Positions 9,768 through 42,281 of a stretch of DNA of 64,000 bases are shown piece after piece (positions within the stretch are counted from its first letter, which is position 1; every line of letters starts with the position of its first letter). Under the pieces are notes generated by a model that was given only the letters and a program-made list of their open reading frames with translations, was not told the DNA's origin and did not search any database. This DNA is from Mesorhizobium ciceri biovar biserrulae WSM1271. Lineage in GTDB: Bacteria > Pseudomonadota > Alphaproteobacteria > Rhizobiales > Rhizobiaceae. Location of the stretch: assembly GCF_000185905.1 (NCBI RefSeq), contig NC_014923.1:5851501-5915500 (forward strand), written 5' to 3'. The position numbers and the translations under genes are program-made.

Positions 9768-9798
9768 GCCCGGCAGGAGACAGAGCTCGCTGCCGGGC
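9768..9798 (-). terminator. Strong hairpin downstream of a minus-strand NifA-type promoter
   Basis: GCCCGGCAG (9768-9776) pairs perfectly with CTGCCGGGC (9790-9798) around a 13-nt loop. On the minus strand it lies about 100 nt after the likely start from the promoter at 9881-9896. No T-run follows, so it could be an RNA structure rather than an intrinsic terminator. Confidence 0.4.
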
Positions 9799-9880
9799 CG
9801 GGTACGCCCTGGGAGGTGGCGTAAGTCCGCGACCTTCGTGGCGGGGGGGAACCACCCAGTCCGCTCGTTTTGCTGAGCGA

Positions 9881-9956
9881 GCATGTATCGTGCCAAGGCA
9901 AAAAGCGTTCTAAAATACCGGTCGCGGCAGCTTTTTTCTCTGTTGCGCATTCGACA
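9881..9956 (-). promoter_or_regulatory. NifA activator site and sigma-54 promoter, leftward, without a downstream gene
   Basis: On the minus strand TTGGCACGATACATGC (9896 down to 9881) has correct GG-N10-GC spacing, and TGT-N10-ACA lies 45 nt upstream at 9941-9956. No credible protein frame follows. A short structured transcript ending at the 9768-9798 hairpin, or a promoter orphaned by rearrangement, are the two readings. Confidence 0.6.
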
Positions 9957-10120
9957 TTGTCACCTATGGAACGTTTTCAAACGTGCCTCTCGGCATCGGC
10001 TGACGCCTCGACCAGAGCGCACCTAAGGCCTTGCCCCGCCAAGTCGACCGGGCGAACTGGGGTGACCGGTTCTAGCTCCGAACTGTTCGCCGGCTGATGT
10101 ACAGGGCGGACCGTCCCTTC
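9957..10120. other. Spacer before the fseA-like gene
   Basis: No gene seen. Confidence 0.3.
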
Positions 10121-10928
10121 TCAAAGAAGGAAATCCCTGTACCCTCCATGCATGAGGGCGCGGCCACGAGAGACAGCGCGGCGAATGCGATCGCGCAGAT
10201 GATCGCGAGGATCCCTCCAGTCGGCATGGACGCGCTGTTGACCAATCAGCGCTTCGGCGAGCTCGCGATGTGACGCCCCAGCAAGCGAGCCGTCGAGCGC
10301 CCGAAGAACGAAGGTCAAACGGGGACCCCGTTTTTCTGGCGGGAATAAGCGGGCAGGAAGCTGTTGGCCCACATTTAGACGATTGAGGGACTCGATCGCC
10401 CTAAGACGGTGCTTCGAAAGGGTCTCGGGCCAGATGGCCTCGGTACGGAGGCAAACGGGGTGCAAGATATCCGCGCCAGAGACGGCGAGTTGGAGCGTAT
10501 GCTCGGTATCCCGAAGAAGAACATGCTGGCCCTTGTCGGGGGCTAGCAGGACCGTCGAACGGCACGGCAATGCCGAGAGCTCGAACGGCGCTGTGCCCGA
10601 CCACGCGGACAGCTGTTCTGCAATGACCGGCAGCACATGAGCGCACCATAGCGGAGACCAGAATACGACCGAATTGCGCCCATGAGACTCGGCGAAACAG
10701 AACACCCCAGCGTGACAGTTCGCCGGCCACCGTGACCACATTGAGAAAAGGTCGGTACGACAAAGTATTGGCCTGCTGGCTTGCAGTGGTCACATCAGGC
10801 TGGAATGCTGGATTCCGGCGTAAGAACTCCCAGGCCCATTCGCGCGGCGTCAGAGCTGAGGTGTAATCATAAGATCTTTCGTCGCGCCAATCAGCCTCAT
10901 CGGCGCCATTCACGAGAACTGCAGGCAT
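10121..10928 (-). CDS. fseA: FseA-like DUF6499-DUF2285 transfer activator needing a +1 frameshift
   Basis: The first frame starts at ATG 10928 with AGGGGAG 8 nt upstream. It encodes a DUF6499-type domain (DWRDERSYDYTSALTPREWA, then WEFLRRNPAF) and reads to WGVLF. At 10691-10700 the minus strand reads CTG TTT C GCC. Moving +1 from UUU to UUC continues as FAESHGRNSVVFW into a full DUF2285 domain (QHVLLRDTEHTLQLAVSGAD; ARLFPPE; FVLRALDGSLAGASHRELA; DWRDPRDHLRDRIRRAV) ending at 10121, for 268 residues in total. Without the shift the product would run on out of phase to 10401 (175 residues). In ICEMlSymR7A the activator of island excision, FseA, is made by ribosomal frameshifting between msi172 and msi171, which carry equivalent domains. 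The frameshift is therefore more likely programmed than a mutation. Adjacent qseC/qseM/traR-like genes at 21-23 kb support the role. Confidence 0.75.
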
Positions 10929-11720
10929 CAGTTTGCTCCCCTGCCCGCCCCCAGACACGTCGAAACATCATGCCGGGTGGCAAAGCACCGGCGCAGGGGC
11001 CACCAGACCTCGACGAATGCGTTTCGTCGAAGCTGTTGCGGCCGGCACCGTTCAGGGCCGAACACGCCGGCAAATAGCGGCGACATGACCGAACCAGCGC
11101 AGCCAGCACGGCCCGAGCGGGCCAAGTGAGTTGGCTCGCCGCCAGTGGCCGGTTCCTGCGCCGCATTCCTGACGTTCCTTGAAGCCCGCGTGGCGCAGCG
11201 GTGGGTTTCTCGTTGATTGTGCGCAGGTCGTCGTAGCGCCAGCGATATAAGCGTAGCCATGGAGGTCTCCTGGGGGAAGTTCCCCGCCATTGGAGACCAA
11301 GTTTCAGGCTACGGCAGCCTGTATAGCTATACAGGTAAGCCGGGGGGTTCAGCGGACCGCAAAAGGACACCGGCGAGGGGCAATGGCTTTGAGGTGGTGC
11401 TCACGCCGAGCTTTTGCGAGCGGCGTGCACGTGGAGCGCGGCGGCCGGGATAAGCGTTATGGCAGGGGCTTGACCAACCATCAGATCGGCCAAACGGAGC
11501 CCTATCCGACTTTTGCCGCTCCGGTGTCTAGACGCTTCGGTCGCTCAAGTGGCCATCGACTGGGGGTGTCGTCGGCCAATTGGATCCGCAAGCATTTAAG
11601 CGTTCTGGCGAAGATGTTGCGGTCCAGCCAAGGTGTGTGAGGTTCACAGCTTGAGTTCTGACTGTGCCGCGGAACTCACCGTTGGAGCTTGATCCGCGCT
11701 CGTTGTGGGATTCTCGACGA
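10929..11720. other. Duplicated spacer upstream of the fseA-like gene
   Basis: This block is similar to 16304-17116. On the minus strand an AGGAGACCTCC sequence precedes ATG at about 11262, but the frame it opens (MATLISLALRRPAHN...) is not conserved between the two copies and matches nothing I know. An imperfect palindrome GGGGAAcTTCCCC lies just upstream of that ribosome binding site. In the corresponding position ICEMlSymR7A has traI2; no LuxI motif is visible here. Confidence 0.35.
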
Positions 11721-11796
11721 TGTCGAACATGCGACACAGCCCTACTAGACTCATCGCATTGTTTTTGAACGATCTCACAGTTGGCACGGCAAATGC
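11721..11796 (+). promoter_or_regulatory. NifA activator site and sigma-54 promoter of the truncated peptidase unit
   Basis: TGT-N10-ACA at 11721-11736 and TTGGCACGGCAAATGC at 11781-11796 with GG-N10-GC. It has the same arrangement and sequence surroundings as 17117-17192. Confidence 0.75.
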
Positions 11797-11846
11797 GGTC
11801 CTGTGCGCAAGAGCACTCTGGCCAGCCAACTGAGAAGAACCTTCTG

Positions 11847-11954
11847 ATGATCAAGCTTGTCGAAAATGCGGACGCCCCGGCCAGCACTGAGCATTCCCGA
11901 GCGGACCGAAACCGTTGCGCTTGCGCTTTCACTCGTCCGGTTATCGGGACATGA
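11847..11954 (+). CDS. 35-residue peptide gene overlapping a peptidase start (copy A)
   Basis: ATG at 11847 with AGAAG 9 nt upstream gives a 35-residue peptide that ends in a TGA sharing ATGA with the next gene start at 11951. It aligns with the 33-residue peptide at 17244: MI-x-x-x-E-x-ADA-x-A, then SRAD in the middle and a C-terminal part with F-x-x-PV/QV. This copy has two cysteines (CACAF) that the other lacks. Conservation in both duplicates of length, start, overlap and the SRAD block argues that the peptide is real rather than a chance frame. The role is unknown; a leader that couples translation or a precursor peptide processed by the neighbouring peptidase are both possible. Confidence 0.5.
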   Translation: MIKLVENADAPASTEHSRADRNRCACAFTRPVIGT

Positions 11955-12081
11955 CCGAGTTCGATTTCCGCCCAACCCTGAACGCACCCGACGATAACCC
12001 CCATCTTTGGCTTGAAGACGTAGACGGCGAACGGGCACTTGAGTGGACAGAAGGCCAGTCAGCAAAGACCCTGAAGTGCTT
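11951..12081 (+). pseudogene. Prolyl oligopeptidase, truncated N-terminus
   Basis: Begins MTEFDFRPTLNAPDD and continues NPHLWLEDVDGERALEW up to SAKTLK, matching the first 40 or so residues of the intact gene at 17342. It then runs into a piece of methionine synthase in another frame. Only the 5' end of the gene survives. Confidence 0.8.
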
Positions 12082-12215
12082 GCGGCGCTCGCCACGACCG
12101 AGCGCGAGCGCATTCTGGTCCTCGATGGCGCCATGGGCACGCAGATCCAGGGCCTGCGTTTCGACGAGGAGCATTTTCGCCGCGAGGCTTTCGCCGGCTG
12201 TGCCTGTCACGCCCA
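12064..12215 (+). pseudogene. metH: Fragment of cobalamin-dependent methionine synthase (MetH N-terminus)
   Basis: In the frame starting upstream at 12043, codons from about 12064 read KDPEVLAALATTERERI, LVLDGAMGTQIQGL and FDEEHFRREAFAGCACH, the N-terminal homocysteine-binding barrel of MetH. About 50 residues remain and the junction with the peptidase fragment lies at 12064-12081. It is a chimera created by recombination and is not functional. Confidence 0.75.
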
Positions 12216-12848
12216 ATCGTCGACTTCGAACGCTGGCTTGGGCCTATTTTCAACTATGTGCCGATGACGAGGCGGCGGAATAGCCGTGGCAAGCTCTATT
12301 GTCTCTTCGCTTTAAAAGTTCTGAACCGGCGGGCGAGGTCGAGATCCGCCTCGGCGCAGCCCGCCTGCCCGGTTGCCGCGCTCGAGAGCTGGATCCGGTT
12401 TTTTGGCTGCATCACCAGAGACCGCTCTCCGGCGCATTTTCAAGGACAACAAGACCGCCTATTCGAACGGCTCTCCGCATATCGCCTGCCTGTTCAAGTG
12501 GGCGGCGCTTGCCGCCGGTCGCGTCAGGGACCTCCCCTGGCCGTTCGACGCGTCTGCGACGTCGAACCCAGCGCCAGAAAAAGGCCGGCTGAGGAAGCTA
12601 AGCCGGGGAGACGCCGCTCAAAGCATGAGATCAACATCCGGAGGCCTGTTTCGCTCGGAATTCTTGAGAACAGGTCGGGGCCAACTGGGGCTGGATGCGG
12701 CCAGGCAGCAAGCGCTACAGATCGCTCAGGAAAATCCATGCTTGGCAATCGCTCGTCTCGCCTCACTCGGGTCGGTGTTATCGCTGACGACGGCGGTCCA
12801 CTTTCACAATCCGGCGCGCACAGATTGGCACTGTCCGCTGCACGACAA
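12216..12848. other. Unrecognised decayed sequence
   Basis: Plus-strand frames contain readable stretches such as FNYVPM and SNGSPHIACLFKWAALAAG, but no family was recognised and frames do not connect. Confidence 0.3.
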
Positions 12849-12923
12849 TGTTGGAGATGCGACAAAGCCGGTTGGACCGATTGCTTTGGTTTTAAGTGTT
12901 TCTTTCATTGGCACACCTTTTGC
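12849..12923 (+). promoter_or_regulatory. NifA activator site and sigma-54 promoter of the DPP-IV-like gene
   Basis: TGT-N10-ACA at 12849-12864 and TTGGCACACCTTTTGC at 12908-12923 with GG-N10-GC spacing, about 240 nt before the peptidase start. The leader in between contains a possible 40-codon frame (ATG at about 12989) without a clear ribosome binding site. Confidence 0.7.
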
Positions 12924-13163
12924 GCCGCACCTCGGTGTCAATGATGTTCGTGCAGCGAAAGTGGAGAGGTTTTTCCTTTGTCTAGGCTATGCCCAGACCA
13001 CCAGATGCAGAAAAGGAAGAGGCCAGTAGCCGAGGCGTAGTCTCGTCACGGGTGCATAGGCGCATTTCTGCTTCATCCGCACACACGTCCTCAGACTTGG
13101 CGCTGCCGTAGACTGGCGGTGACAGCCACATCCAAAATACGAATTCCGAAAACCGAAGAGTAA

Positions 13164-15491
13164 ATGGAAATGCACAGAACCCGCGCTTTGACGGTCGCGC
13201 CATCAATTCAGGGTGCGTCGGAATGGGCAACCGCTGAGGCGCTGGCTGTAGGTTCAAATGGTGGACATCCGCAGCTAGCGCCGGCCGATTTCGAGCGCGC
13301 ACTTACCATCAACGATTCATATGGCGGGCTCACCGTCAATGTCCCGGAGGTGCCTTTCTGGCCGAATGGAGCCGACGCGTTCGTCTACCGCCGGACTAGC
13401 CATGGCGAGCGCCAGTTCATGCTGGTCGATGTTGCCACGGGCATGCAGCGGCCAGCCTTCGATCAGTCTCGTCTGGCGGCGGCATTAAACAGGGCGAGCC
13501 ATAACCTGTACCACGCCGACCATCTTCCGTTCGACCATTTCGAACTGAGCGACGATGGTCGCAGGCTCGGCTTCCAGATTGAAGACATCCGGTGGAGCTG
13601 CGATCTTGCAAGCTATGAGTGTACCAACACCACATTCGATTCGGACAACCGGGAGCTTTGGCCGCTCGGCCACAACTACGTGCCGGTGCAGAACAACCCC
13701 GACAGTAGCAGGTTGTCGCCCGACGGAAAATGGATCGTCTACATCAAACACTGTAATGTTTTCCTGCGCAGCGAGGACGGATTGCGGGATGTCCCTCTGA
13801 GCCGAGACGGAGCCGAAGACAATTGCTACGTCGTTTCGACGCTAAGCTGGTCGCCGGACTCGCGCCACCTCGCTGCTTACCGTGTTCGCCCCGGCTACAA
13901 GCGGGAGGTCCCCTACCTCAATTCCTCGACGGACCAGTTGGGGCGCGAATATTCAACAAGGCCCTATCGCAAGCCGGGCGATGTCCTTCCGCTGCCGCAG
14001 CCGGTCTTGTTTGACATTGCCGACGGGCGCCAGATCGTGATTGACAATGCCCTATTCTCGAACGTCTTCGAACTTTCCCCTCCCCAGTGGTGGGCGGACG
14101 GTCGCGGCTTCACTTTCGAATATAACCAGCGCGGGCATCAGCTCTATCGCCTGGTCGAGGTAGACGCCGCCACGGGCCGCGCTCGCTCCCTGATCGAGGA
14201 GACCAGTGAGACATTCGTTGATTATCCGCCGCTGGGAGCGAGCCAGGAGGGTACCGGAAAAATCTTCCGTTACGATGTCGATGACGGGAAGGAGATCATC
14301 TGGGCATCCGAGCGCGACGGGTACGAGCATCTGTATCTTTTCAACGGCCGGACAGGCGCGCTCGAAAACCAGATCACCCGAGGTGAGTGGGTCGTCCGGA
14401 GGGTCGATTATATTGATCCGATCAAGCGACAGATCTGGTTCGAAGCGAGCGGGATGAACTCGGAGGAGGACCCCTATTTCGTTCATGCTTACAGCATCGG
14501 CTTCGATGGCAAGGGGCTGACTGCACTGACGCCCGATCCAGCCAACCACCATATCGAGTTCTCGCCCGACGGGCGCTATTATGTCGATCTCTGGTCACGC
14601 ATCGATCTGCCTCCGCGCATGGCACTTTACCGCGCCAGCGACAATGCCAAGCTCAAGGAGATCGAGACCGCCGACGTTTCCGAGCTCGTCGCCGCCGGTT
14701 GGCAGCCGCCGCTCAGTTTCCATTCCAAGGGGCGCGACGGCAAGACCGATGTCTGGGGCGTGATCCACCTGCCAGCCGACTTCGACCCGAGCAAGAAGTA
14801 CCCGGTGGTGGAGAATATCTATGCCGGGCCCCACGGCTCCTTCGTCCCGAAATCCTTCTCGGGGTGGACGGAGCCGCTCACGCAGCTTGGCTTCGTCGTT
14901 GCTCAGATCGATGGCATGGGTACCAACAACCGCTCGCGCGCCTTCCATGATGTTGCCTGGAAAAATCTGAAGGACGCAGGATTTCCCGATCGCATTCTGT
15001 GGCACAAGGCCGCGGCCGCACGATATCCGTGGTATGACACATCCAACGTCGGAATTTTTGGCGCGTCCGCCGGTGGCCAGAGCGCGGTCAGCGCACTGCT
15101 CTTTCATGCCGATTTCTACAAGGTCGCAGTTGCTGAAAACGGCTGCTACGACAACCGGATAGACAAGATCTGCTGGAACGAACTGTGGATGGGATGGCCG
15201 GTCGGGATTGAATATTCCCAATCCTCCGCCGTTGACAATGCTTACAGGCTAGAGGGCAGGCTGATGATCGCGGTCGGCGAAATGGATGATAATGTCGATC
15301 CGTTTTCCTCGTTCCAGCTTGCCGATCGGCTCGTCAAGGCAGGAAAAGATTTCGAAATGGTCTATGTGCCTGGTGCCGATCACTATACGCTAGGCATCTA
15401 CACCGAGCACAAACTCCTGGACTTCTTCGTTCGGAACATTCTAGGTCAGACCCCGCCCAACTGGAACGACTTGTTTGATCTAGAAGAATGA
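13164..15491 (+). CDS. Dipeptidyl peptidase IV-type serine peptidase (family S9)
   Basis: 775 residues. The first two thirds form a beta-propeller typical of DPP-IV (repeated LSPDGKWIVY, LSWSPDSRHLAAYR, FSPDGRYYVD-like blades), and the last 250 residues an alpha/beta-hydrolase. The catalytic triad is visible: Ser635 in GASAGG (the usual form is GWSYGG), Asp708 in GEMDDNVDP and His740 in GADHYT. DPP-IV enzymes remove dipeptides after proline or alanine from the N-terminus of peptides. No clear signal peptide is seen, so it may work in the cytoplasm on imported peptides. A NifA/sigma-54 promoter lies upstream, which points to expression during nitrogen fixation. It sits next to a prolyl oligopeptidase under a promoter of the same type. 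Confidence 0.85.
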   Translation: MEMHRTRALTVAPSIQGASEWATAEALAVGSNGGHPQLAPADFERALTINDSYGGLTVNVPEVPFWPNGADAFVYRRTSHGERQFMLVDVATGMQRPAFDQSRLAAALNRASHNLYHADHLPFDHFELSDDGRRLGFQIEDIRWSCDLASYECTNTTFDSDNRELWPLGHNYVPVQNNPDSSRLSPDGKWIVYIKHCNVFLRSEDGLRDVPLSRDGAEDNCYVVSTLSWSPDSRHLAAYRVRPGYKREVPYLNSSTDQLGREYSTRPYRKPGDVLPLPQPVLFDIADGRQIVIDNALFSNVFELSPPQWWADGRGFTFEYNQRGHQLYRLVEVDAATGRARSLIEETSETFVDYPPLGASQEGTGKIFRYDVDDGKEIIWASERDGYEHLYLFNGRTGALENQITRGEWVVRRVDYIDPIKRQIWFEASGMNSEEDPYFVHAYSIGFDGKGLTALTPDPANHHIEFSPDGRYYVDLWSRIDLPPRMALYRASDNAKLKEIETADVSELVAAGWQPPLSFHSKGRDGKTDVWGVIHLPADFDPSKKYPVVENIYAGPHGSFVPKSFSGWTEPLTQLGFVVAQIDGMGTNNRSRAFHDVAWKNLKDAGFPDRILWHKAAAARYPWYDTSNVGIFGASAGGQSAVSALLFHADFYKVAVAENGCYDNRIDKICWNELWMGWPVGIEYSQSSAVDNAYRLEGRLMIAVGEMDDNVDPFSSFQLADRLVKAGKDFEMVYVPGADHYTLGIYTEHKLLDFFVRNILGQTPPNWNDLFDLEE

Positions 15492-23625: not shown

Positions 23626-25032
23626 TCATACGGCACCCTCAGCCTTCAGCGCGCGATATGTGGCATCGACTGATTTCGCGGTCGCACCGACGATGATGTC
23701 GATCTCTTTTCGGGTAATGATCAGAGGTGGCGCATAGCCGAGGATGTCGCCATGCGGCATGGCCCGTCCGATCACACCATTTTCAAACAGAGCAGCTGCA
23801 GTGCGCACCCCGACCTGAAGGTCAGGATCGAATGGTATCCTTTGTTTCGGGTCCCGCATCATCTCTACCGCGGATAGGATACCCACTCCGCGAACTTCGC
23901 CGACGATGGGATGTCCCGCCAGTTCGGCTTTCATGCGGGCCTGCCAGTACGGTCCGACATCCTTCACATGTTCCAGGATGTTTCTTTCTTTTAGCAGTCG
24001 AATATTGGCAAGCGCGGCCGCAGCACAAAGCGTGTGACCGGAATATGTCCATCCATGGCCAAGTGCGCCGTGCTTCTCGGTTCCTTGTTCCAAAACCGAC
24101 CAGACTCGCTCGCCAATGATTGACCCGGATATAGGGAGGTAGGCGGAACTCAAACCCTTGGCGATCGTCACGAAATCCGGGCGCATGTCGTACAGGTGGG
24201 AACCGAACTTCTCGCCGGTTCGCGCGAAGCCGCAGACCACTTCATCGGCAATGAGGAGGATATCGTACTTGTCGAGCACCGCTTGAATGGCCGTCCAGTA
24301 CCCTGTGGGGGGCGGCACAATACCTCCTGTTCCAAGTACCGGCTCTCCGATAAAAGCCGCAACAGTCTCGGGGCCTTCGGTCAGGATCAACGCCTCAAGC
24401 TCATCGGCACAGCGCTGGGAGAACGCTTCCTCGATCTCCCCGGTACGCGCTTGGCGATAGTAGTGCGGCGTCGTTGTATGGCGCACCAAATCCAGGGGCA
24501 AGTCGAAGAAATTATGGAAGAAGGGAAGCCCCGTCAGGCTACCGGTGACCAATCCAGATCCGTGATAGCCACGATTTCGTGAAATGATCTTTTTCTTTTC
24601 GGGCCGACAGAGGATGTTATTATAGTACCAGACCAGCTTGATGTTGGTTTCGTTGGCATCGGAACCGGATAGGCCAAAATAGACCCGTCGCATGTTCCGT
24701 CCGAAATACTCAACTATCGCCTCTGCCAAAAGGGCGACCGGCTCCGTCCCCTGGCTGGCATAGACGTGTGCGAACGGCAGCTCATGCGCTTGCCGGGCGA
24801 TAGCCTCGGCAATTTCCGTGCATCCATATCCCATGTTGACGCAGTAGAGCCCTCCGAAACCGTCGAGGCTCTTCCTGCCTTCGGTATCCCAGATGTAGAC
24901 GCCTTCTGCACCGGCCATAATCCGATTTGGGGTCTCGCCTCGGCTGTGCTTGGCCAGATGGGTAGACGGATGAAAGACGAAGCTTCGATCCTTCTCCCGG
25001 AGTTGCTCGGTTCCCAGATTGCTCAAGCGCAT
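23626..25032 (-). CDS. Class III (omega) aminotransferase, PLP-dependent
   Basis: 468 residues from ATG 25032, which follows AGGAGAGGAAC. The fold-type I pattern is complete: FGLSGSDANETNIKLVWYYN, NRGYHGSGLVTGSLTG (cofactor phosphate region), ILLIADEVVCGFARTG with the PLP-binding Asp, and the Schiff-base lysine in TIAKGLSSAYLP. The family includes GABA-pyruvate, putrescine-pyruvate and beta-alanine transaminases that take amino groups from omega-amino compounds. It lies leftward and separate from its neighbours. A link to the succinate-semialdehyde-type dehydrogenase at 6.4 kb (GABA use) is plausible but not shown by position. The exact donor cannot be read from the sequence. Confidence 0.85.
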   Translation of the reverse strand: MRLSNLGTEQLREKDRSFVFHPSTHLAKHSRGETPNRIMAGAEGVYIWDTEGRKSLDGFGGLYCVNMGYGCTEIAEAIARQAHELPFAHVYASQGTEPVALLAEAIVEYFGRNMRRVYFGLSGSDANETNIKLVWYYNNILCRPEKKKIISRNRGYHGSGLVTGSLTGLPFFHNFFDLPLDLVRHTTTPHYYRQARTGEIEEAFSQRCADELEALILTEGPETVAAFIGEPVLGTGGIVPPPTGYWTAIQAVLDKYDILLIADEVVCGFARTGEKFGSHLYDMRPDFVTIAKGLSSAYLPISGSIIGERVWSVLEQGTEKHGALGHGWTYSGHTLCAAAALANIRLLKERNILEHVKDVGPYWQARMKAELAGHPIVGEVRGVGILSAVEMMRDPKQRIPFDPDLQVGVRTAAALFENGVIGRAMPHGDILGYAPPLIITRKEIDIIVGATAKSVDATYRALKAEGAV

Positions 25033-25204
25033 GTTCCTCTCCTCGCAACACACTGGCGGAGGCACTCGGCCGGCCAGCTCATTGGCAAGCAGTATACCGG
25101 AAAGACGGCTCGAATTTCGCGGGAATGGATGTTTTTTGCAGACGAATTCGCGGAATCGGGATCAGATGCCGTGGAAATCAGCTGAGCTGTGTACCTTTGC
25201 CTGG
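25033..25204. other. Upstream region of the aminotransferase
   Basis: A GG-N10-GC spacing exists at about 25073-25095 on the minus strand, but it lacks the TTGGCAC core, so no promoter is called. Confidence 0.3.
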
Positions 25205-25606
25205 ACTGGGCCCGTTTGGACCGGACAGTCGGCTAATGTGGGAGGCTTGGGGGTATCGTCAAGCACAGGCGGCTGACGACTATCGACGGATTGAATTGCA
25301 GCGGCTGCGGTGGGATCGGTCGAATCTTTGGAGTTCAGAAGTGCGGGGGCTTGAAGAGCGCGTTCGCGACCTCGAGCGGCTTCTCGGCCGCAAGACCATG
25401 CAAGTGGAGATCCTCAAGGACGCGCTGGCCGGGTCGGACTCAAAATAAACCGACTTGCGGCGCTTGTTGCAGCCGAGTGACAGTTCCCGATGAAGGCCGT
25501 TGCCGAGACCCCGCGGTGGCGCGGCCCATCTCCATGACAAGGGTGCGTCGCCCGGTGAAGCCGCGCGGGCCTTATCGCAAACGCGTCCGCGGCTCCAGGA
25601 CCTACT
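25205..25606 (+). mobile_element. IS3-family (IS2-like) transposase remnant, orfA-orfB junction
   Basis: An orfA C-terminus with the leucine-zipper-like block LEERVRDLERLLGRKTMQVE and ILKDALAG is followed by a damaged orfB start (MKAVAETPRW..., VKPRGPYRKR). Only the middle of the element remains. It abuts the 3' end of the DUF6527 gene. Confidence 0.65.
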
Positions 25607-26062
25607 CTAGAGTTTTCTTGCATATATGTCTGGTCGGGCTCGCCAAGGCTCGACACCGGTGTCTTCACACCAATAGACCCTTCCGTCGCTGAGCCAGAAA
25701 TGGCTCAGGCATCCTTTGGTTCTCCAAACGGAGGGATGCAACGTTGGCCGGCCCTCCAGGCTCACCTCAATGCGCCACCTGGGGTTATGCGGCGCGTGGG
25801 TTGGCAATGAAACCACATCCCCACACCCACAGGGACACCTAAAGAGTGCCCAGTATGGTCGGCCTTTATGCACGACGCTGATGAAATGTCCCGGCCGAAC
25901 CGCGTCATTCGGGGGCGTTTTTTCAACCACATCATTGCGAGCGAAAGATACGTCCGCGAGCGATGCCTCAGAAGGAACTCCGTCCGCCGGTGTTTTTGGA
26001 CCACGTGGACCGAGAATGATTTCCTCTACCCACCGTAGGAAACTTAACAACCAAGACCACAT
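25607..26062 (-). CDS. DUF6527 family protein of a ubiquitin-like operon
   Basis: 151 residues from ATG 26062, which lies 5 nt after the stop of the JAB-E1 gene. It starts with a short hydrophobic stretch (MWSWLLSFLRWVEEIILG), then the conserved metal-binding-like motif FRCPCGCGDVVSL, the block HNPRWRIEVSLEGRPTLHPS and SHFWLSDGRVYWCE. DUF6527 proteins recur beside bacterial E1/E2/ubiquitin-like genes; their function is unknown. An IS3 remnant touches the C-terminal end, so the last residues may not be original. It is the last gene of a leftward four-gene operon. Confidence 0.75.
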   Translation of the reverse strand: MWSWLLSFLRWVEEIILGPRGPKTPADGVPSEASLADVSFARNDVVEKTPPNDAVRPGHFISVVHKGRPYWALFRCPCGCGDVVSLPTHAPHNPRWRIEVSLEGRPTLHPSVWRTKGCLSHFWLSDGRVYWCEDTGVEPWRARPDIYARKL

Positions 26063-26067
26063 GCGAA

Positions 26068-27522
26068 TCAACACAGCTTGCCGAGTGACGGCATTCCGAG
26101 CCGGTAGCCATTCTCGCGTGCGAGCAATAAACCGTCTGGACCGCAGCAAAAACAACCAGCGTTGTCTTTTGGCATATTGCTGTAAATTACCATGTGCACG
26201 AAATCGTACCATATATTGTCGCGGCGAATGTCGCTCGCAAGCCGCCTATAGGGGCGCACCAGATCAAACAAGGTCGCTACGGCCATGTCGGCGGTCGCAC
26301 TGGTGAAGGGACCTACTCCGGGCGCCCGCTCCCCGCCCCCGATCAGATAATACTCTTCCCGGAGCGTCTCTGGATCCAGCTCCGCCAGCTCCGGACGCGC
26401 CTTCAGTGCACTCTCGTAATCGAGCTTTTCCTCGGTGACGACGCCTTGGCATCTTAAGCACCCACCAGATTCGGGAAGAACTGTGCTAACCCGCCCTCTA
26501 TGATCACGTAGGTACGGCTGACGGTCCTGGTCAAGACCAATATTGCCCGTGAGCCCGCAGTCGATAAGTCCTTGGCAGTAATAGTAAACCGCCTGATTGA
26601 GAATTTCTCTCCCAGCGACATCATCAGTACAACCGAACACCAAGTCGGCGCTGGAAATGGCATCGACCGCTTCTGGAGACTCGTTCACATACCCCTCAAT
26701 GGCAACGACAGTCACTCTCAGGCCCAGATCCCGGACATATCGGGCTAACGTAGCAGCTTTGCTCTCGCCTACATCGCAACGGCGATATCCGCGAACGCGG
26801 TTGAGATTGCTAGCTTCGAGCGAATCGCCGTCTACAACGATGAGTTCGCCTACACCCGCGCGAGCGATAAGTGTGGCGACTGAAGACCCTGTTCCCCCTC
26901 CTCCGACGATTGCTACGCGCAACGATCTGATCTTCTCGTTGAATGGTTCGCCAAATGCAGCTTCTTGTCGCCTTAGCACTTCCGATGGTGCAGCATCGAC
27001 CCTGTTGCCCATGTGAACTGACAGCTGCGTCCCGAGCACACAGACATGCCGGACGTCAGCCACTCCGTGAGGGGCCGCACCCGTCCGAACTCTGGCACGC
27101 CAATGTCCGTCGGCCAAAATCATCGCGACAAGTGATACCTCAGGTCCATTGCAGCCAGCGTATCCCCTCAGAATGCTTTGTTCGTTCTCATCATCCTTCG
27201 TCGAGAAATCCAGAACGCCCCTTGGGTGACTGTGGGCAAACCCCAGCTCGAGCCGCTCCTGCTCGCAACGAAAGTAGATATCCTGGAACTTGCGGAGATT
27301 GATGCGCAAGTGCACCGGGGAGCTGTCCAGCACCCAGTCGCCATCCATCTCAATCGCGTCAACGGCCACAAAACGCGTTGACGGCGGCAGACCCAGTACG
27401 GTTCTCTCAATTTTGCGGAAGAGGACGAGCGCGCCCCGCTCGTCACCGTCGGGGTGCCCGGTCAACCAGCTCTTGAGCTTATCGTCGAGGGAACCGATAA
27501 TCGAAATCCGATGTCCGTTCAT
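26068..27522 (-). CDS. JAB isopeptidase-E1 (ThiF) fusion of a bacterial ubiquitin-like system
   Basis: 484 residues. Residues 1-160 are a JAB/JAMM metalloprotease: Glu28, His97-Ser-His99-Pro, then Ser107-x-x-Asp110, exactly the HxH-x7-S-x2-D zinc site. Residues about 195-450 are a ThiF/E1 adenylyltransferase: the nucleotide loop VGGGGTGSS (206-214), VVDGDSLEASNLNR with Asp231, GCTDD near 298-301, and two CxxC-like zinc pairs at 355/358 and 457-460. E1 would adenylate the C-terminus of the small ubiquitin-like protein encoded two genes upstream, and JAB would trim it or remove it from targets. It overlaps the E2-like gene by ATGA (27519-27522). Fusion of both activities in one chain is known in some bacterial operons of this kind. 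Confidence 0.85.
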   Translation of the reverse strand: MNGHRISIIGSLDDKLKSWLTGHPDGDERGALVLFRKIERTVLGLPPSTRFVAVDAIEMDGDWVLDSSPVHLRINLRKFQDIYFRCEQERLELGFAHSHPRGVLDFSTKDDENEQSILRGYAGCNGPEVSLVAMILADGHWRARVRTGAAPHGVADVRHVCVLGTQLSVHMGNRVDAAPSEVLRRQEAAFGEPFNEKIRSLRVAIVGGGGTGSSVATLIARAGVGELIVVDGDSLEASNLNRVRGYRRCDVGESKAATLARYVRDLGLRVTVVAIEGYVNESPEAVDAISSADLVFGCTDDVAGREILNQAVYYYCQGLIDCGLTGNIGLDQDRQPYLRDHRGRVSTVLPESGGCLRCQGVVTEEKLDYESALKARPELAELDPETLREEYYLIGGGERAPGVGPFTSATADMAVATLFDLVRPYRRLASDIRRDNIWYDFVHMVIYSNMPKDNAGCFCCGPDGLLLARENGYRLGMPSLGKLC

Positions 27523-27944
27523 GAACGCCTCGCGTCCGGGTACTTAAACGCCCATGAGATTCGGTCCATAATTGTCCGGACGTCGTCGACCTTTGGCTTC
27601 CAGGCATTTTTATGCCAGTGTCTGGACCATCGGCAAAACACTGTCGCCTTGTGCGTACGCGAATCCTCATTGGAACCAGGTCCGCCAGTATTTGGTATTG
27701 GCTTGCCGTCAGCCCGGTGAAGTCGTGGGTGAACCCAGAACATGTCCCCACCCGAGCTATTGTAATTCTGCGGAATCTCATACAACACATCGACAGCGTT
27801 TGCAGGTTTTGCATCTGCCAGGTAAATCCCTTTCGGCAGCGGAAAGCTTTTGAATATTAGGAAACGGGCGCCCTCCTCTTCTTCAAAATTGACGCCGGCT
27901 TTGTGGAGTGTCTCGTAATCAGAATCGAACAACAGGGGCATCAT
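27519..27944 (-). CDS. E2-like (Prok-E2_E) protein of a bacterial ubiquitin-like system
   Basis: 141 residues. The order FPLPKGIYL, VDVLYEIPQNYNSSGGDMFWVHP, then a gap and TVFCRWSRHWHKNAW-x-x-KVDDVRTIMDRISWAF fits the prokaryotic E2-like family. Cys104 in TVFCRW is the candidate thioester residue. E2 would take the ubiquitin-like protein from E1 and pass it to a target. The gene overlaps both neighbours by ATGA (27941-27944 and 27519-27522), so all are made together. The family assignment rests on this pattern and on the E1 and Ubl genes on either side. Confidence 0.75.
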   Translation of the reverse strand: MMPLLFDSDYETLHKAGVNFEEEEGARFLIFKSFPLPKGIYLADAKPANAVDVLYEIPQNYNSSGGDMFWVHPRLHRADGKPIPNTGGPGSNEDSRTHKATVFCRWSRHWHKNAWKPKVDDVRTIMDRISWAFKYPDARRS

Positions 27945-28186
27945 TCAATTCCGGCTTCGGAACTTGCATCCTGCGCGTAGAACTTTTCGATCCCCGGTGG
28001 CAGCAAGTCGATCGGGTCCTCGCGCCCAACCAACTGGCCAGGCTGGCCTGGCCTTTTCACATAAAGGTCCATGCTATCCGGTATGCCAGGGCCCACGCCT
28101 CGCACCTCGGCGCCGGTTATGAACCGGTTGTCCCAATCGTAATTTTCGTTTTCGATTTTGAACTTGAACTTCTCTTTGGCAGCCAT
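27941..28186 (-). CDS. Single-domain ubiquitin-like (multiubiquitin family) protein
   Basis: 81 residues with AAGGA before the ATG at 28186, first gene of the operon. FKFKIENENYDWDNRFITG, AEVRGVGPGIPDSMDLYV, then DPIDLLPPGIEKFYAQ match the 'multiubiquitin' beta-grasp domain, here a single copy rather than a tandem. The C-terminus is EAGIE and lacks the Gly-Gly of eukaryotic ubiquitin, so either the JAB domain trims it or conjugation uses another residue. It is the likely modifier of the operon. Targets are unknown. Confidence 0.8.
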   Translation of the reverse strand: MAAKEKFKFKIENENYDWDNRFITGAEVRGVGPGIPDSMDLYVKRPGQPGQLVGREDPIDLLPPGIEKFYAQDASSEAGIE

Positions 28187-28383
28187 GGATCCTTCTCTCG
28201 CAGTTGCTTGGTTTCAAGATATCTCTGGCGCGCACATCCCTCTTCTCCCGTTGATTACGGGCAGGGCTTGACCAGTTGCCTCTTATACGGGAAGCGTTCC
28301 TTCGGGTTTGACGGGAATGCGCGTGTTTCGCCACGGAATTCGCGGAATGGAGGTCCAAACCCGCAGGAATAACGCCTGGGCGT
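28187..28383. other. Promoter region of the ubiquitin-like operon
   Basis: No NifA-type or nod-box-like element was found here. The region should contain the promoter of the leftward operon. Confidence 0.35.
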
Positions 28384-28881
28384 CTACCGTTGTCTTAGTG
28401 AGGACAAGGGAATCGGCGCATTTGATTTCACAGGTTTGGTCACCACAAGGCTGTAATATTGATCAATCCCCAGCCCTGCCTGCAGCAGCCCCTCCATGAA
28501 ATCTTGATAGGTAGCCATGGAAAGTGTTGCGACGCGCATCAGATAATCGATCCTTCCGCCAATTGCCCAGCAATCCAAGATTTCGGGAAAATCTTGGATC
28601 GCGACCTCGAAGTGTCTTTGGTCCTCAAGGCGATGACGGTCCAGCACGACCTCCACCATTACAAAGATCATGCCGCCAATGAGGGCTGGACTGAGCCGTG
28701 CGTAGAATCCCTCAATAATTCCTCCAGCTTCGAGCGCACGGAGCCGATCCGAGCAAGCCGAAGCCGACAAATGGACGCGCTTCGCAAGCTCGCTTTTTGA
28801 AATTCGGCCGTCTGACTGAATCTCGGAGAGAATCCGTAAGTCCCAAGCGTCCAGGCCCGCAGGATTGGGTTTCGACTTCAT
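28384..28881 (-). CDS. Lrp/AsnC-family transcriptional regulator
   Basis: 165 residues. An N-terminal helix-turn-helix (LDAWDLRILSEIQSDGRIS, KSELAKRVHLSASACSDRLRALE) is followed by a RAM ligand-binding domain (MVEVVLDRHR, FPEILDCWAIGGRIDYLMRV). Such proteins respond to an amino acid and control its transport or breakdown. It lies just left of, and in the same direction as, the fumarase-like gene (71-nt gap). A role in sensing an amino acid linked to the methylaspartate genes to its right is a fair guess only. Confidence 0.85.
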   Translation of the reverse strand: MKSKPNPAGLDAWDLRILSEIQSDGRISKSELAKRVHLSASACSDRLRALEAGGIIEGFYARLSPALIGGMIFVMVEVVLDRHRLEDQRHFEVAIQDFPEILDCWAIGGRIDYLMRVATLSMATYQDFMEGLLQAGLGIDQYYSLVVTKPVKSNAPIPLSSLRQR

Positions 28882-33789: not shown

Positions 33790-34689
33790 CTAGGCTTTCG
33801 GGCCCATGGCGATTATCTCACGGGCCCTTCGAATCACCGGTGCATCAACCATCTTTCCGTCTAAGGCGAAAGCACCTCTGCCCTGCGCCGAGGTATCGTT
33901 TTGCGCCGCGACGACACGACGGGCCCACTCGAGTTCCTGCTCGCTTGGCGAGAAAGCCTCATTGAATATGGCCACCTGGGTCGGGTGGATCGCCAAAGCT
34001 CCGACAAAGCCAAGCCGCCGCGCGTGAGCCGCGGCCTCACGAATCTTATGCGTGTCTGAGAACTCGCCGATGCTTCCTACGAAGCCAAGCGGTAGCAAGC
34101 CTGCGGCACGAGCAGCAAACAAAACGGAAAGGTTCGGCGTCAAGAGAAGGTCGAGTTCCGGGGCACCACCAACTGAGGCACTGAAGTCTTCAGGGCCCAG
34201 CGCCATTGCAATCATCCTGGGATCGGCCGACGCAATGGCCGCGAGATTTTGCAATGCAGCTGGGGTCTCGATCTGTGCAAGGAACCGGATTTGACCCGGC
34301 ACAAGATTTCTTTCTCGTTCAAGTTCCAGTACCGCATTCGCGATCTCCGATACCCATTCTGACGAATCCGTTTTCGGAAGAACAAGTGCATCAACACCCG
34401 CCATCACTGCTGCATCAAGATCTGCCGCCAAGGGGCGCAAACCACGATTCACACGGATCAAGACAGATGCGCCCTTTCGGCCCACCTTTGCCACGGATGC
34501 AGAAAGCCGCTTTCGCGACTCCTCTTTCTGATCCTGGGGAACCGAGTCCTCAAGGTCCAGTATGACGCCATCTGCCCCGCGCTCATGAGCAGTCTCCACA
34601 AAGCGCGGAACATGAGAGGGAACGAAAAGCAGCGATCTCCAGCGGGGAATGGACATCGGTCTTTCAATGGCCGGAACGGTGCGCTTCAT
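33790..34689 (-). CDS. HpcH/HpaI aldolase family, citramalyl-CoA lyase-like
   Basis: 299 residues of the CitE/malyl-CoA lyase fold: RSLLFVPSHVPRF, GADGVILDLEDSVP, a metal-ligand region ETPAALQNLAAIA, MALGPEDFSASVG and FVGALAIHPTQV at the end. Such enzymes split (S)-citramalyl-CoA to acetyl-CoA and pyruvate, or related acyl-CoAs. With a CoA-transferase 134 nt upstream and a mesaconase-type enzyme nearby, citramalyl-CoA is the best-supported substrate. Malyl-CoA or beta-methylmalyl-CoA are alternatives. The ATG at 34689 is used; a second ATG at 34656 is also possible. Confidence 0.8.
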   Translation of the reverse strand: MKRTVPAIERPMSIPRWRSLLFVPSHVPRFVETAHERGADGVILDLEDSVPQDQKEESRKRLSASVAKVGRKGASVLIRVNRGLRPLAADLDAAVMAGVDALVLPKTDSSEWVSEIANAVLELERERNLVPGQIRFLAQIETPAALQNLAAIASADPRMIAMALGPEDFSASVGGAPELDLLLTPNLSVLFAARAAGLLPLGFVGSIGEFSDTHKIREAAAHARRLGFVGALAIHPTQVAIFNEAFSPSEQELEWARRVVAAQNDTSAQGRGAFALDGKMVDAPVIRRAREIIAMGPKA

Positions 34690-34823
34690 GAAGATCTGCT
34701 GCCGGTTTTAGTGCGGGCTGTGTCAGTGAGCTGGCTGGGCGGCCGTGGGACTGGAAGGGGTCAGAGAGGTTGGTATGCACTCTGTGGGTCGCGACCGCGC
34801 CCCCTTGCCCACAAGAGGCGTGC

Positions 34824-35993
34824 TCATGCTGAGGCGGCTCTTGCGCGCAAACCTGCTTGAACCTCCTCGCGGACAGCCTCGGTATGAGCGCCAAGAGCCG
34901 GAACGGGGCGCAGCAACGGGCGCTCAGAGTTGAAGATCGCCGCCGGCGCTATCGTCTCGATGGTTCCTTCGGGTGTTCCGACCTGCACCTTGCGAATGTG
35001 TGGGTGCGTTGAAACATCCGCGACTTCGTTCAGTCGGCCATATGCCAACCCGGCCGCCTCGAGCTCCCGCATCGCTTCATGGCAGGATAGTTCGGAAAAC
35101 CGCCGTTCAATGATCTTATCAAGTTGCGCACGGTGACCGAGGCGCTCCATATTATCGGCGAAACCAGGTGTGCGTATAAGCGCCGGCTGCTTAAGAAATT
35201 TCTCGCAGAAATTTACCCATTCCCGGTCATTCTGAACCGAAAAGATGACCTCTTTGCCGTCGGCACAACGGTAAGCGCCATACGGCGCCAGCGACGGGTG
35301 TTTCACGCCGGCGCGTACCGTATGGTAGCCGCTATAGTCGTTTTGCAGAACCGGCACGTTCATCCAGTCGGCGATTGCATCGAACAGTGACACCTGGATG
35401 CTGGTGCCTTCACCGGTGACCTCGCGATGATAGAGGGCCTGAAGAATGGCGCTATGTGCTGTCATGCCTGCCGAGATGTCGCAAACCGACACACCCACAC
35501 GGGCGGGCCCCTGTTGCGTCCCGGTGATCGCACACAGACCAGTTTCGGCCTGGACGATGAGATCATAAGCCTTCAAGTGGGAATACGGCCCCTGCTCTCC
35601 GAAACCAGAGATATCGCAGGTGATCAGCCGTGGAAAACGCCGACGTAGATCCGCAGACCCGAAACCCAATTTTTCAATACTGCCCGGCTTCAGATTTTGG
35701 ATCAATACGTCGGCACCGGCAATGAGCGTGTCCAGGACGGCGCGGTCCGCCTCAGATCTCAAGTCCAGACAGACCGACTCCTTACCCCGGTTGAGCCAGA
35801 CGAAGTAGGCGCTCTGACCCCGCACCAACTTGTCGTAGTTTCTGGCAAAATCCCCTTCGGGCCTCTCGATCTTGATCACCCGGGCGCCGGCGTCAGCAAG
35901 GCGAGACGAAGCGTAAGGCGCAGCAACCGCCTGCTCCACGGCAACGACTGTGATCCCCTCAAGAGACTTCTGCATGCGACACCGTGTTTTCAT
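34824..35993 (-). CDS. CaiB/BaiF family CoA-transferase
   Basis: 389 residues of the interlocked CoA-transferase family (class III). The catalytic aspartate is Asp144 in KAYDLIVQAE, and the conserved VIKIERPEGD, NLKPGS and VSLFDAIADW blocks are present. Family members move CoA from succinyl-CoA to citramalate, mesaconate, itaconate and similar acids. The gene overlaps the methylaspartate ammonia-lyase stop by ATGA, so it is made together with it; this points to (S)-citramalate or mesaconate as the acceptor. Position and family support the role, but the acceptor itself cannot be read from the sequence. Confidence 0.85.
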   Translation of the reverse strand: MKTRCRMQKSLEGITVVAVEQAVAAPYASSRLADAGARVIKIERPEGDFARNYDKLVRGQSAYFVWLNRGKESVCLDLRSEADRAVLDTLIAGADVLIQNLKPGSIEKLGFGSADLRRRFPRLITCDISGFGEQGPYSHLKAYDLIVQAETGLCAITGTQQGPARVGVSVCDISAGMTAHSAILQALYHREVTGEGTSIQVSLFDAIADWMNVPVLQNDYSGYHTVRAGVKHPSLAPYGAYRCADGKEVIFSVQNDREWVNFCEKFLKQPALIRTPGFADNMERLGHRAQLDKIIERRFSELSCHEAMRELEAAGLAYGRLNEVADVSTHPHIRKVQVGTPEGTIETIAPAAIFNSERPLLRPVPALGAHTEAVREEVQAGLRARAASA

Positions 35994-37243
35994 CCAACGT
36001 TATCGGCTTGAACTCGACGACGGTTCAGTATCGCCAGCAATCGGTTCTGTTCGTTCCCGACGATGGAAAATCCCTCGTCGACCCCCATTCCCGGCTTTGC
36101 GAGCATCATGTCGGCCTGGGTCGCTACCGAAATGTGCACTGAAGCCTGGGCGGAGAGATCTGTCTCGGTACAACTTCCTCCGACATACGCTCCGACCCTG
36201 TTTTCCTTGCAGATGAGAACTGCGCGGGCCGTATCGGCGATTGAGCCTACGTCTGGCGTCTTGATTTGGACCAGATGCGTAGCCTTCGCTTCGGCAAAGA
36301 GCCGAATATCCTCAAGCGTATTGCATCTCTCGTCCACGACAATGCGGGCTCTGGAACCGCGGTTGTCCAAAATCGACACGATCTCCGCGTAGTTCTCAAT
36401 TTGCGCTTGAGTCGAACCAAAATCCGCAGGAGACTCGACATTGAGCGCGAAACCCGGAACGCTCTCGGCAACCCTGCAGATAAAGTCGGCGATCCGTTGC
36501 GGCTCCAAGCCGATTTCGAGGCCGATCCAGCCATATACATCGAAATGCAGCACCGGATGATACCCCGGGAGACCGATTTGGCGCGTACGCGTTGCAACCC
36601 ACTTCACGAAATCCATGAACGTCTGGCCGTCGGTGCCGAATTTCTGCCGAGAGTTGATAAGGCCGTGGGGAAGAATGTCCACGCCTTTCAAGATCATTCT
36701 GTCAACGTTGATTTCGCGAGCATCGCCGCTCTGGCAGTAAATTGGGACGCGGCACGTGGGTAGCGGCAGATCAAACTCGGCGCATACGATCTCCGCCATT
36801 GTCTTGCGCTGAAGGTGGGCGGCTGCGCGAAGAAGCGCTTGGCTCACGCCATATTCAATAGCCAGAGGTATCCGCAAATGCTCGACGGATTCAAAAACCC
36901 TCGTGCAAGAATCAATAAACCGAGAGGCATCGACATCAAAAAGCCTCGGCGCGACGACGCATGACGTTAGATCTGAGATTTGGTTAGTGTCGAACAGAGG
37001 ATCGCGTCCACCGGCACCAGCGTACTGGACGTTCATCATGTCACCCCAAACAACGGTCTCGTCCGCAAGGACGAGCCCGATGCTGAGCGAAGATGCCGGA
37101 ATACGAATGGACTTGAACCCGGGGGTCGTCGGTGCGCCGACATACATAAAGCCGTCCTGGATTGCGCCGGACCTAATGGCTTCCTGATCGTCATAGAAAA
37201 ATGCGCCGTTGCCAGGCGCTAGCAGGACATCTTTGATCTGCAC
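35990..37243 (-). CDS. Methylaspartate ammonia-lyase
   Basis: 417 residues from a GTG start at 37243. The sequence fits 3-methylaspartate ammonia-lyase of the enolase superfamily: QDVL-like start (QIKDVLLAPGNGAFFYDD), MNVQYAGAGGRDPLF, LHFDVYGWIGLEIG, a catalytic lysine region VQIKTPDVGSI and YVGGSCTETDLSA near the end. It removes ammonia from (2S,3S)-3-methylaspartate to give mesaconate. No B12-dependent glutamate mutase is in the window, so the methylaspartate source is outside or different. First gene of a leftward operon with the CoA-transferase, and preceded by a sigma-54-like element. Confidence 0.85.
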   Translation of the reverse strand: MQIKDVLLAPGNGAFFYDDQEAIRSGAIQDGFMYVGAPTTPGFKSIRIPASSLSIGLVLADETVVWGDMMNVQYAGAGGRDPLFDTNQISDLTSCVVAPRLFDVDASRFIDSCTRVFESVEHLRIPLAIEYGVSQALLRAAAHLQRKTMAEIVCAEFDLPLPTCRVPIYCQSGDAREINVDRMILKGVDILPHGLINSRQKFGTDGQTFMDFVKWVATRTRQIGLPGYHPVLHFDVYGWIGLEIGLEPQRIADFICRVAESVPGFALNVESPADFGSTQAQIENYAEIVSILDNRGSRARIVVDERCNTLEDIRLFAEAKATHLVQIKTPDVGSIADTARAVLICKENRVGAYVGGSCTETDLSAQASVHISVATQADMMLAKPGMGVDEGFSIVGNEQNRLLAILNRRRVQADNVG

Positions 37244-41145: not shown

Positions 41146-41240
41146 TTGATGGGATGGACGGCGCCCGCAACGGCATCATCCTCGTGAGAGGCGTGCCAAG
41201 ATGGCTGCTGTCGAGCACTCATCTGGAAGGAGCACCGTCC

Positions 41241-42281
41241 ATGGGCAATATTAACACCGATCTCAGCGCTGTCGTTACCGTTTGCCTCGATCTGGCCAAG
41301 CACGTATTCCAGGTTCACGCGATCGACGCCGCCGGCCGTGTCGTCACGACCCGCGCGCTGCGGCGGAAGGATGTTCTGGCATTCTTCGAATGCCTGCCAT
41401 GCTGCCTCATTGGCTTGGAAACGTGTGGGTCGGCCCATCACTGGGCTCGCGAACTCATGAAGTTCGGCCATGACGTGCGGCTGATGCCGCCAGCCTATGT
41501 GAAGGCTTACGTGCGTCGTCAGAAGAACGACGCTGCTGATGCAGCAGCGATCTGCGAGGCGGTGACGCGCCCGTCAATGCATTTTGTGCCGGTGCGATCG
41601 GTCGAGAACCAGGCGGCGCTCATGCATCACAAGGTCCGCGAACTTCTGGTGGCCCAGCGCACTCAGCTGCTCAATGCCCTTCGCAGCCATCTGGCCGAAA
41701 TCGGGATCATCGCCGCCCAGGGACCGAACAATGCGCGTGCCTTGGCTATCCTCGTCATCGAGGGCAACGACATGATCCCGGCGACGGTGCGTTCGGCACT
41801 ATTGCCGTTGGTGCGCCAACTGAGCGAACTCGATGCCGAGATCAGGCAGAGCGATCAGGCCATTCTGGCCCTCGCCAAGACCGATGAAACGGCACGCCGC
41901 CTGATGACCGTTCCCGGCATCGGCCCTGTTACTGCCTCCGCGCTTGCGGCGAGCGTCCAGGATATCTCGGCTTTCTCAGGCCCGCGCGAATTCGCCGCCT
42001 TCCTTGGGCTCACACCAAGGCAAAACTCCTCAGGCGGAAAGGAACGGCTGGGGCGTGTATCCAAGATGGGAAACCGATATCTGCGAAAGCTGCTCGTGGT
42101 GGGGGCTCATGCTGTTCTGTTCCATCGCAAGCGTTCCGGCGATGTGTTGAGAAACTGGGCGGATCGCCTGATGGAGACCAAGCCCTTCAGGCTTGTCGCC
42201 GTAGCGACCGCCAACAAACTCGCCCGTATTGCCTTCGCACTCATGCGCGACGAGACACATTATGTCGGCACGCCGGCGTAA
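41241..42281 (+). CDS. IS110-family transposase
   Basis: 346 residues with GGAAGGAG before the ATG. The N-terminal RuvC-like (DEDD) domain holds VCLDLAKHVFQVHAID with the first aspartate, LETCGSAHHWARE and KNDAADAAAICEA; the C-terminal transposase_20 domain has TVPGIGPVTASALAAS and FLGLTPRQNSSGGKERLG. IS110-type enzymes work with a structured bridge RNA encoded in the element ends. The gene looks intact, unlike copy 1 at 37643. Confidence 0.9.
   Translation: MGNINTDLSAVVTVCLDLAKHVFQVHAIDAAGRVVTTRALRRKDVLAFFECLPCCLIGLETCGSAHHWARELMKFGHDVRLMPPAYVKAYVRRQKNDAADAAAICEAVTRPSMHFVPVRSVENQAALMHHKVRELLVAQRTQLLNALRSHLAEIGIIAAQGPNNARALAILVIEGNDMIPATVRSALLPLVRQLSELDAEIRQSDQAILALAKTDETARRLMTVPGIGPVTASALAASVQDISAFSGPREFAAFLGLTPRQNSSGGKERLGRVSKMGNRYLRKLLVVGAHAVLFHRKRSGDVLRNWADRLMETKPFRLVAVATANKLARIAFALMRDETHYVGTPA

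Follow-up and report, generated by a model that had tools for sequence, protein, structure and literature searches.

What does a four-gene set of the ubiquitin-like conjugation kind do near the nodulation genes of a rhizobium, and by which chemistry would it act? The question is raised by a four-gene operon at positions 25607..28186, on the (-) strand, of a 64,000-nucleotide (nt) stretch of DNA from Mesorhizobium ciceri biovar biserrulae WSM1271, referred to here as the window. The operon encodes a ubiquitin-like protein (Ubl), an E2-like protein, a JAB peptidase joined to an E1 enzyme and a DUF6527 protein. Taking identity, path and role together, we consider it likely that this set is a Bub-type conjugation operon (type 6e of Iyer and colleagues) with a one-domain modifier that acts along the path proposed below. 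As to its role, the operon most likely descends from a module for stress response or defence and now resides in the symbiosis region, where it keeps a single site between two copies of a conserved Lrp-adjacent segment.

A first-pass annotation of the sequence had described four leftward genes joined by ATGA overlaps and a 5-nt gap. That layout is exact by coordinates (4-nt overlaps for Ubl/E2 and E2/JAB-E1, and 5 nt between the E1 stop and the DUF6527 start at 26062), and the proposed four-part content, of the Bub or multiubiquitin kind, is borne out by Pfam and by the Bub structures. The Ubl matched multi-ubiquitin sequences of the PDB (9d59, E 1e-8; 9cd2, E 4.5e-7), which suggests membership in the multiubiquitin beta-grasp family, and reached 22.8 bits (E 1.1e-4) with the Pfam model Multi_ubiq, under its cut-off of 24.5 bits. 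The E2-like protein, with a UBC fold, matched Prok-E2_E at 1.4e-29; it carries a Ser-x-His motif, taken as Bub-defining by our own reading, and no conserved Cys. In the third chain, a JAB domain stands N-terminal to a ThiF-type E1 (ThiF, 8.4e-37; Prok-JAB, 0.024, under its cut-off), and the chain matched the BubCD structure at E 5.8e-22. The annotated JAMM zinc site in the same chain as the E1 domain is complete, residues E28, H97, H99, S107 and D110 being identical in 50/50 aligned fusions (18 of the window type and 32 others). Rows L002, L015 and L016 were dropped from the E2 and E1 tables as repeats of other rows, and some remaining rows may come from the same strains, as the genome sets overlap. 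The DUF6527 protein matched its Pfam family at 4.6e-23.

The four genes recur in identical order in 8 Mesorhizobium loci and in one gammaproteobacterial metagenome-assembled genome (L011). This recurrence, together with median ratios of nonsynonymous to synonymous substitution (dN/dS) of 0.15-0.28, argues that the operon is not a chance arrangement. In 8 sequences, a set that excludes locus L010 with its broken frames, median dN/dS was 0.195 for the Ubl, 0.158 for E2, 0.152 for E1 and 0.281 for DUF6527, and 0.076 and 0.098 for the neighbouring Lrp and fumarase-like genes; the operon genes are thus constrained, but less tightly than these neighbours. L010, from Mesorhizobium metallidurans, is one of the 8 Mesorhizobium loci; its Ubl and DUF6527 frames are broken (7556-7930, 9790-10312), E2 and JAB-E1 are still open, and the operon may be decaying there. 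The literature searches returned no paper on DUF6527, and no title describing the Mesorhizobium operon type among the matches listed for Multi_ubiq and related terms and for Bub operons.

Table 1. Coordinates of the operon genes and flanking features in the window (aa, amino acids).
Feature	Position	Strand	Description
Ubl gene	27941..28186	(-)	Single beta-grasp ubiquitin-like protein, 81 aa, BubA-like
E2-like gene	27519..27944	(-)	141 aa, BubB-like
JAB-E1 gene	26068..27522	(-)	JAB (JAMM) peptidase and ThiF-type E1 in one chain, 484 aa, BubCD-like
DUF6527 gene	25607..26062	(-)	151 aa
Lrp/AsnC-type regulator	28384..28881	(-)	Pfam; upstream neighbour in 11/11 window-type Mesorhizobium genomes
Class-III aminotransferase	23626..25065	(-)	Pfam; directly after Lrp in 3/22 operon-free loci
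Conserved segment copy 1	28266..28375	(-)	Between Lrp and Ubl gene
Conserved segment copy 2	25086..25179	(-)	Just upstream of class-III aminotransferase gene

The Bub system of Citrobacter (BubA, BubB and BubCD; PDB 9ea4, 9ea8, 9eae and 9eav) likewise comprises a Ubl, an E2 with an RWSRH motif and a JAB-E1 fusion, and in the Bub plasmid operons of Citrobacter koseri and Enterobacter roggenkampii DUF6527 also follows E1. Unlike in Bub, the E2 of the window operon has a gene of its own and the modifier is a single Ubl domain, its Ubl ends in Ala-Gly plus two residues where Bub has NNG, Cys355 and Cys358 of its E1 have no counterpart in the aligned BubCD, and Lrp stands directly upstream in place of a CapK/S-like pair. 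By the features of sequence and fold that were compared, the operon belongs to the Bub/6e family; what sets it apart is the single domain of the modifier, the Ubl tail, the Cys pair of the E1, the N-terminus of DUF6527 and the genomic place. According to Iyer, Burroughs and Aravind (2006, PMC1779556), type 6e combines a Ubl of 1-3 domains, an E2/RWD-like protein, a JAB-E1 and a metal-binding protein, and a solo-Ubl case is given; in the window, DUF6527 is this companion metal-binding protein. The metal motif printed there, C-x(3)-C-x(35-38)-H-x(2)-C, differs from the C-x3-C-x37-C-x2-H of the window DUF6527 (Cys76, Cys80, Cys118 and His121; a probable metal site), and the E2 is called inactive there. 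Operons of the Bil (bacterial ISG15-like) kind also hold Ubl, E2, JAB and E1 in a single operon. BilB uses the Cys of a CEHH motif, with BilC and BilD described as separate proteins (PMC11354881), whereas the window joins JAB to E1 and lacks the conserved catalytic E2 Cys that marks Bil.

A second Bub-type operon was identified in the same genome (L001/L137, G000:C1 ~979 kb). It shares the JAB-E1, the RWSRH motif and a DUF6527 gene after the Ubl-E2 gene; unlike in the window, the Ubl is fused to E2 (369 aa), with NNG-E at the junction, and the fusion matched multi-ubiquitin 9d59 at E 1.5e-63 and BubB at E 6.9e-33. This more canonical operon (L137 6451-9301; G000:C1 ~978.5-981.3 kb) is organized as a Ubl-Ubl-E2 fusion, JAB-E1 and DUF6527. 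An M78 (ImmA/IrrE) peptidase gene was observed upstream, and DNA polymerase III alpha-like, dCTP deaminase-like and ArdC-like genes lie around it.

The window corresponds to 5.78-5.84 Mb of a 6.2-Mb contig, on which nifH (5.948 Mb) and nodA (5.989 Mb) lie ~140 kb and ~180 kb from the operon. The symbiosis region proposed in the first-pass annotation is supported by these distances and by the adjacent Lrp gene, which was detected (E <= 1e-60) in 72 of 145 Mesorhizobium genomes; nodA is present in 71/72 of these and in 29/73 without Lrp (Fisher p 2.7e-16). A Prok-E2_E gene was found in 31/145 genomes and the window-type operon in 11 Mesorhizobium genomes, ten by sequence and one (G527) by score and position. 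These 11 carriers are all nodA+, compared with 100/145 overall (p 0.014), and 13/20 genomes with only other E2 types are nodA+; both p values overstate the case because the genomes are related. In 11/11 window-type genomes, 452-464 nt separate the E2 gene from this same Lrp gene, and the Ubl gene starts ~0.2 kb from Lrp. Upstream, the order LysR, aldehyde dehydrogenase, fumarase, Lrp is common to eight loci; the downstream side was read fully in L003 and L006 only. With its fixed position amid metabolic genes and close to the nodulation genes, the operon lets the question be asked whether bacterial ubiquitin-like systems serve defence only. The window type was absent from 396 other genomes drawn from the order, where the best other match had 39% identity, and among 398 genomes drawn from the phylum, a further three carried E2s, which are more distant. 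Borders of the region were not found from GC content and tRNA genes in 20 stretches of 20 kb plus the window; one tRNA-Cys was detected, and the window holds no tRNA gene.

A plain anti-phage cassette that landed in the symbiosis region by chance, with no link to symbiosis, is possible and in our judgement somewhat doubtful. Among 14 plasmid loci hand-chosen out of 131 + 152 records, an ImmA/IrrE peptidase lies near the operon in eight (L046, L048, L051-L053, L134-L136), a CapK/CapS-like pair, by annotation, in two (L132, L133) and neither in four (L047, L049, L050, L054), and the second Bub-type operon of the genome adds its M78 peptidase. The L011 operon adjoins a UvrD-like helicase and a HamA and DEAD-helicase pair (5634-14223), which we take to be Hachiman-like. 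According to PMC13373217, 219/544 Bub operons carry CapW or CapH+CapP and 59/544 carry CapK+CapS, and PMC4963859 states that 70% of the multiubiquitin (PF14452) proteins examined there adjoin potential toxin-antitoxin loci with a DUF955 component. Against a chance landing, the window type is not shuffled in Mesorhizobium: it occupies one site in 11/11 genomes, with Lrp and the fumarase-like gene directly upstream in 8/8 loci. The 2026 paper (PMC13373217) also states that phage protection by Bub operons has not been shown. Phage records gave no substantial E1 relatives (two records, each covering 23% of the query), and no DUF6527 relatives were found in the viral contigs searched. A DNA-damage regulator is not among the genes directly upstream in these 8 loci; Bub/6e membership stands, since such a regulator is not a defining feature of the family.

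The operon is flanked on both sides by a conserved segment of ~100 nt, and thus lies between direct repeats of an Lrp-adjacent element. This segment directly follows Lrp in 30/30 Lrp loci, of which 8 carry the operon and 22 lack it. A second copy stands ahead of the aminotransferase in all six occupied loci holding that gene (window, L003, L004, L007, L009 and L010), one copy was observed within the examined piece of operon-free loci, and a search of the genome returned two copies only (89% and 77% to the consensus), either side of the operon. Lrp, a single segment and the aminotransferase are adjacent in operon-free L098, L099 and L102; L104 holds an aminotransferase fragment only, and the other 18 operon-free loci have none within 1.5 kb of Lrp. 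As the segment always follows Lrp while the aminotransferase is that close in only 3/22 loci, it is tied to Lrp, and its reading as an aminotransferase promoter is weakened. It may be a promoter or operator now ahead of the Ubl gene, or a trace of the operon's arrival; gain and loss of the operon cannot be polarised from the compared loci. No covarying RNA structure was detected in the segment (0/6 predicted pairs changed on both sides in 14 sequences), and over 24900-28700 there was no sigma-70 consensus on the operon strand and no Rfam match. An opposite-strand open frame at 25125-25448, between operon and aminotransferase, resembles on visual inspection the remnant of a transposase helper and has no Pfam match.

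It is also conceivable that the Bub module was taken into the symbiosis programme itself, at its fixed Lrp-adjacent site between segment copies, co-expressed with the neighbouring amino-acid pathway and tagging bacterial proteins in nodules through Gly-Ser oxyesters, independent of phage or DNA damage. We hold this to be unlikely, and the tie of the segment to Lrp lowered our estimate slightly further.

The likely mode of action of a Bub-type operon with a one-domain modifier can be approached from conservation, starting with the C-terminus of the Ubl. The first-pass annotation had singled out its EAGIE end, without Gly-Gly, as a departure from the rule; the end is as described, but it is not odd in the family. 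After a conserved SSEA-Gly79, two residues (IE) follow. Gly79 is present in 118/118 Ubls (the query and 117 homologs). The residue before it is Ala in 114 and Pro in 4, and 0-9 variable residues come after it; 20/118 end exactly at Gly. Since the Ubl search uses words of the query, loci found by their E2 genes were examined too, and the intact Ubls there (n=8; L003-L009 and L011) all end in SEAG plus two residues. In distant operons, free Ubls end in TTEG, QTEG, PSEG, NFG, TFG, SFG or NPG, with or without a short tail, and Ubl-E2 fusions have the junction after TTEG, QTEG, QTDG or xNG; the exceptions are the broken frames of L010 and L035 and the weak partial matches of L041 and of a single L050 frame. 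The solved BubA chains stop at NNG, and the BubB chain comes next in the aligned fusion, with numbering from 237; these limits are construct borders, yet consistent with a single polypeptide cut after Gly. Gly79 with its variable tail would fit, as expected, a precursor awaiting trimming.

In the E2-like protein, the RWSRH motif provides a candidate acyl-carrying Ser107 with His109. Each of these residues is kept in 80/82 E2s. Every tabulated E2 row has WSRH, except for FSWH in L042-L045 and L054; the same pattern was observed in a further set of loci wherever E2 matched, and Ser-x-His is also kept in other operon subtypes. Within the window clade, Ser lies 8 residues ahead of the W-x-P Trp in 64 of the 75 sequences caught by the pattern (82 supplied), the same spacing as from catalytic Cys to Trp in eukaryotic E2s; the loop length differs in other subtypes. 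For the structure model of this protein, 45 of 81 homologs were aligned with the query. Cys104, put forward as a candidate in the first-pass annotation, is rejected as the active site on its conservation, being present in only 33/82 E2s, with Leu in 27. The E2-like protein thus probably works through serine.

We propose the following path. The JAB domain would cut the Ubl after Gly79 and free the two-residue tail, and the fused E1, as its invariant ThiF-type residues suggest, would adenylate the new Gly carboxylate with ATP. The Ubl would then pass to Ser107 of the E2-like protein, with His109 aiding, as an oxyester and not a Cys thioester, and from there be conjugated onto target proteins. 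JAB, and perhaps DUF6527 via its invariant Ser111 and His121, might remove or edit conjugates. Bub conjugation reportedly proceeds through oxyesters (Ye et al., Nat Struct Mol Biol 2026). As both the processing site (Gly79 and tail) and the candidate acyl residue (Ser107, His109) of this one-domain form can be read from conservation, the oxyester model is testable in a small system.

Several points weigh against this chemistry. The oxyester claim leans on that one paper, the Multi_ubiq and Prok-JAB matches are both under the Pfam cut-offs, the 5-residue query words of the Ubl search may favour the conserved end, and the E2-found Ubl set is small. The E1 showed no fixed residue that could carry the acyl group. 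At position 363, 120/121 close homologs have Thr or Ser, but 32 other types vary (D 14, N 7, S 5, T 4, C 1, K 1), so Thr363 was rejected as a universal acyl carrier; the position looks more like a helix cap. Position 347 (window 26482-26484) is Cys in 70/121 close homologs and Thr in the window, and Cys occurs there in 0 of 50 tabulated fusions. Between positions 359 and 400, no position has Cys in at least 3 of the 121 E1s. The invariant E1 Cys residues are 86, 298, 355, 358, 457 and 460, of which Cys355/358/457/460, as two C-x2-C pairs, probably form a Zn site.

These retained pairs, the ThiF and MoeB models as best NCBIfam matches of the E1 (far under their cut-offs) and the reading of the type 6e E2 as inactive (PMC1779556) would all suit a scheme without conjugation, in which an inactive E2-like protein accompanies a Ubl and E1 acting as sulfur carrier or regulatory partner in the manner of ThiS/MoaD. 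We judge this scheme to be quite improbable: JAB is fused to E1, the E2 Ser-x-His is near-invariant and the nearest structures are those of the Bub system. Furthermore, ThiS/MoaD sulfur carriers have a terminal Gly-Gly, the window Ubl has Ala-Gly before its tail, and no sulfur, cofactor or thiamine gene was found among the 20 further window open reading frames scanned (71 of at least 150 aa in the window). A classical thioester cascade through E2 Cys104 is very unlikely: although this Cys lies in the same loop, three residues ahead of Ser107, and is present in all tabulated window-type Mesorhizobium copies, the residue is Phe in L011, whose operon holds the same four genes, mostly Gln in Mesorhizobium copies of other types, and also Gln in solved BubB.

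The DUF6527 protein, noted in the first-pass annotation, is confirmed by Pfam and is not an odd extra: in 14/14 of the chosen plasmid loci it follows E1 (with one intervening gene in L054), as a usual operon companion. Cys76, Ser111 and His121 occur in 38/38 DUF6527 sequences (the comparison pattern itself demanded these residues, but every one of the 38 fitted it), and Cys80 and Cys118 in 36/38, both being lost in L048 and L130 (L015, L016, L114 and L116 were dropped from this count). A metal site that is dispensable while Ser and His are not might fit, speculatively, a Ser-His hydrolase on a metal-stabilised fold, with Ser111 and His121 as the candidate residues; DUF6527 may correspond to the Ser-His protease BubE. 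In addition, the DUF6527 protein of the window has a hydrophobic stretch at its N-terminus (mean hydrophobicity 1.06, moment 0.47), predicted as helical at pLDDT ~70-80 within an otherwise poor model from 9 sequences (mean pLDDT 47.6). Against PDB sequences, DUF6527 gave no match at E 10.

Further genes were observed in the window. Methylaspartate ammonia-lyase, CoA-transferase and HpcH-type lyase genes lie at 33790-37243, near the aldehyde dehydrogenase and fumarase-like genes, and perhaps represent a mesaconate-type amino-acid pathway. An IS110-family transposase (DEDD_Tnp_IS110, Transposase_20) was identified at 41154-42281.

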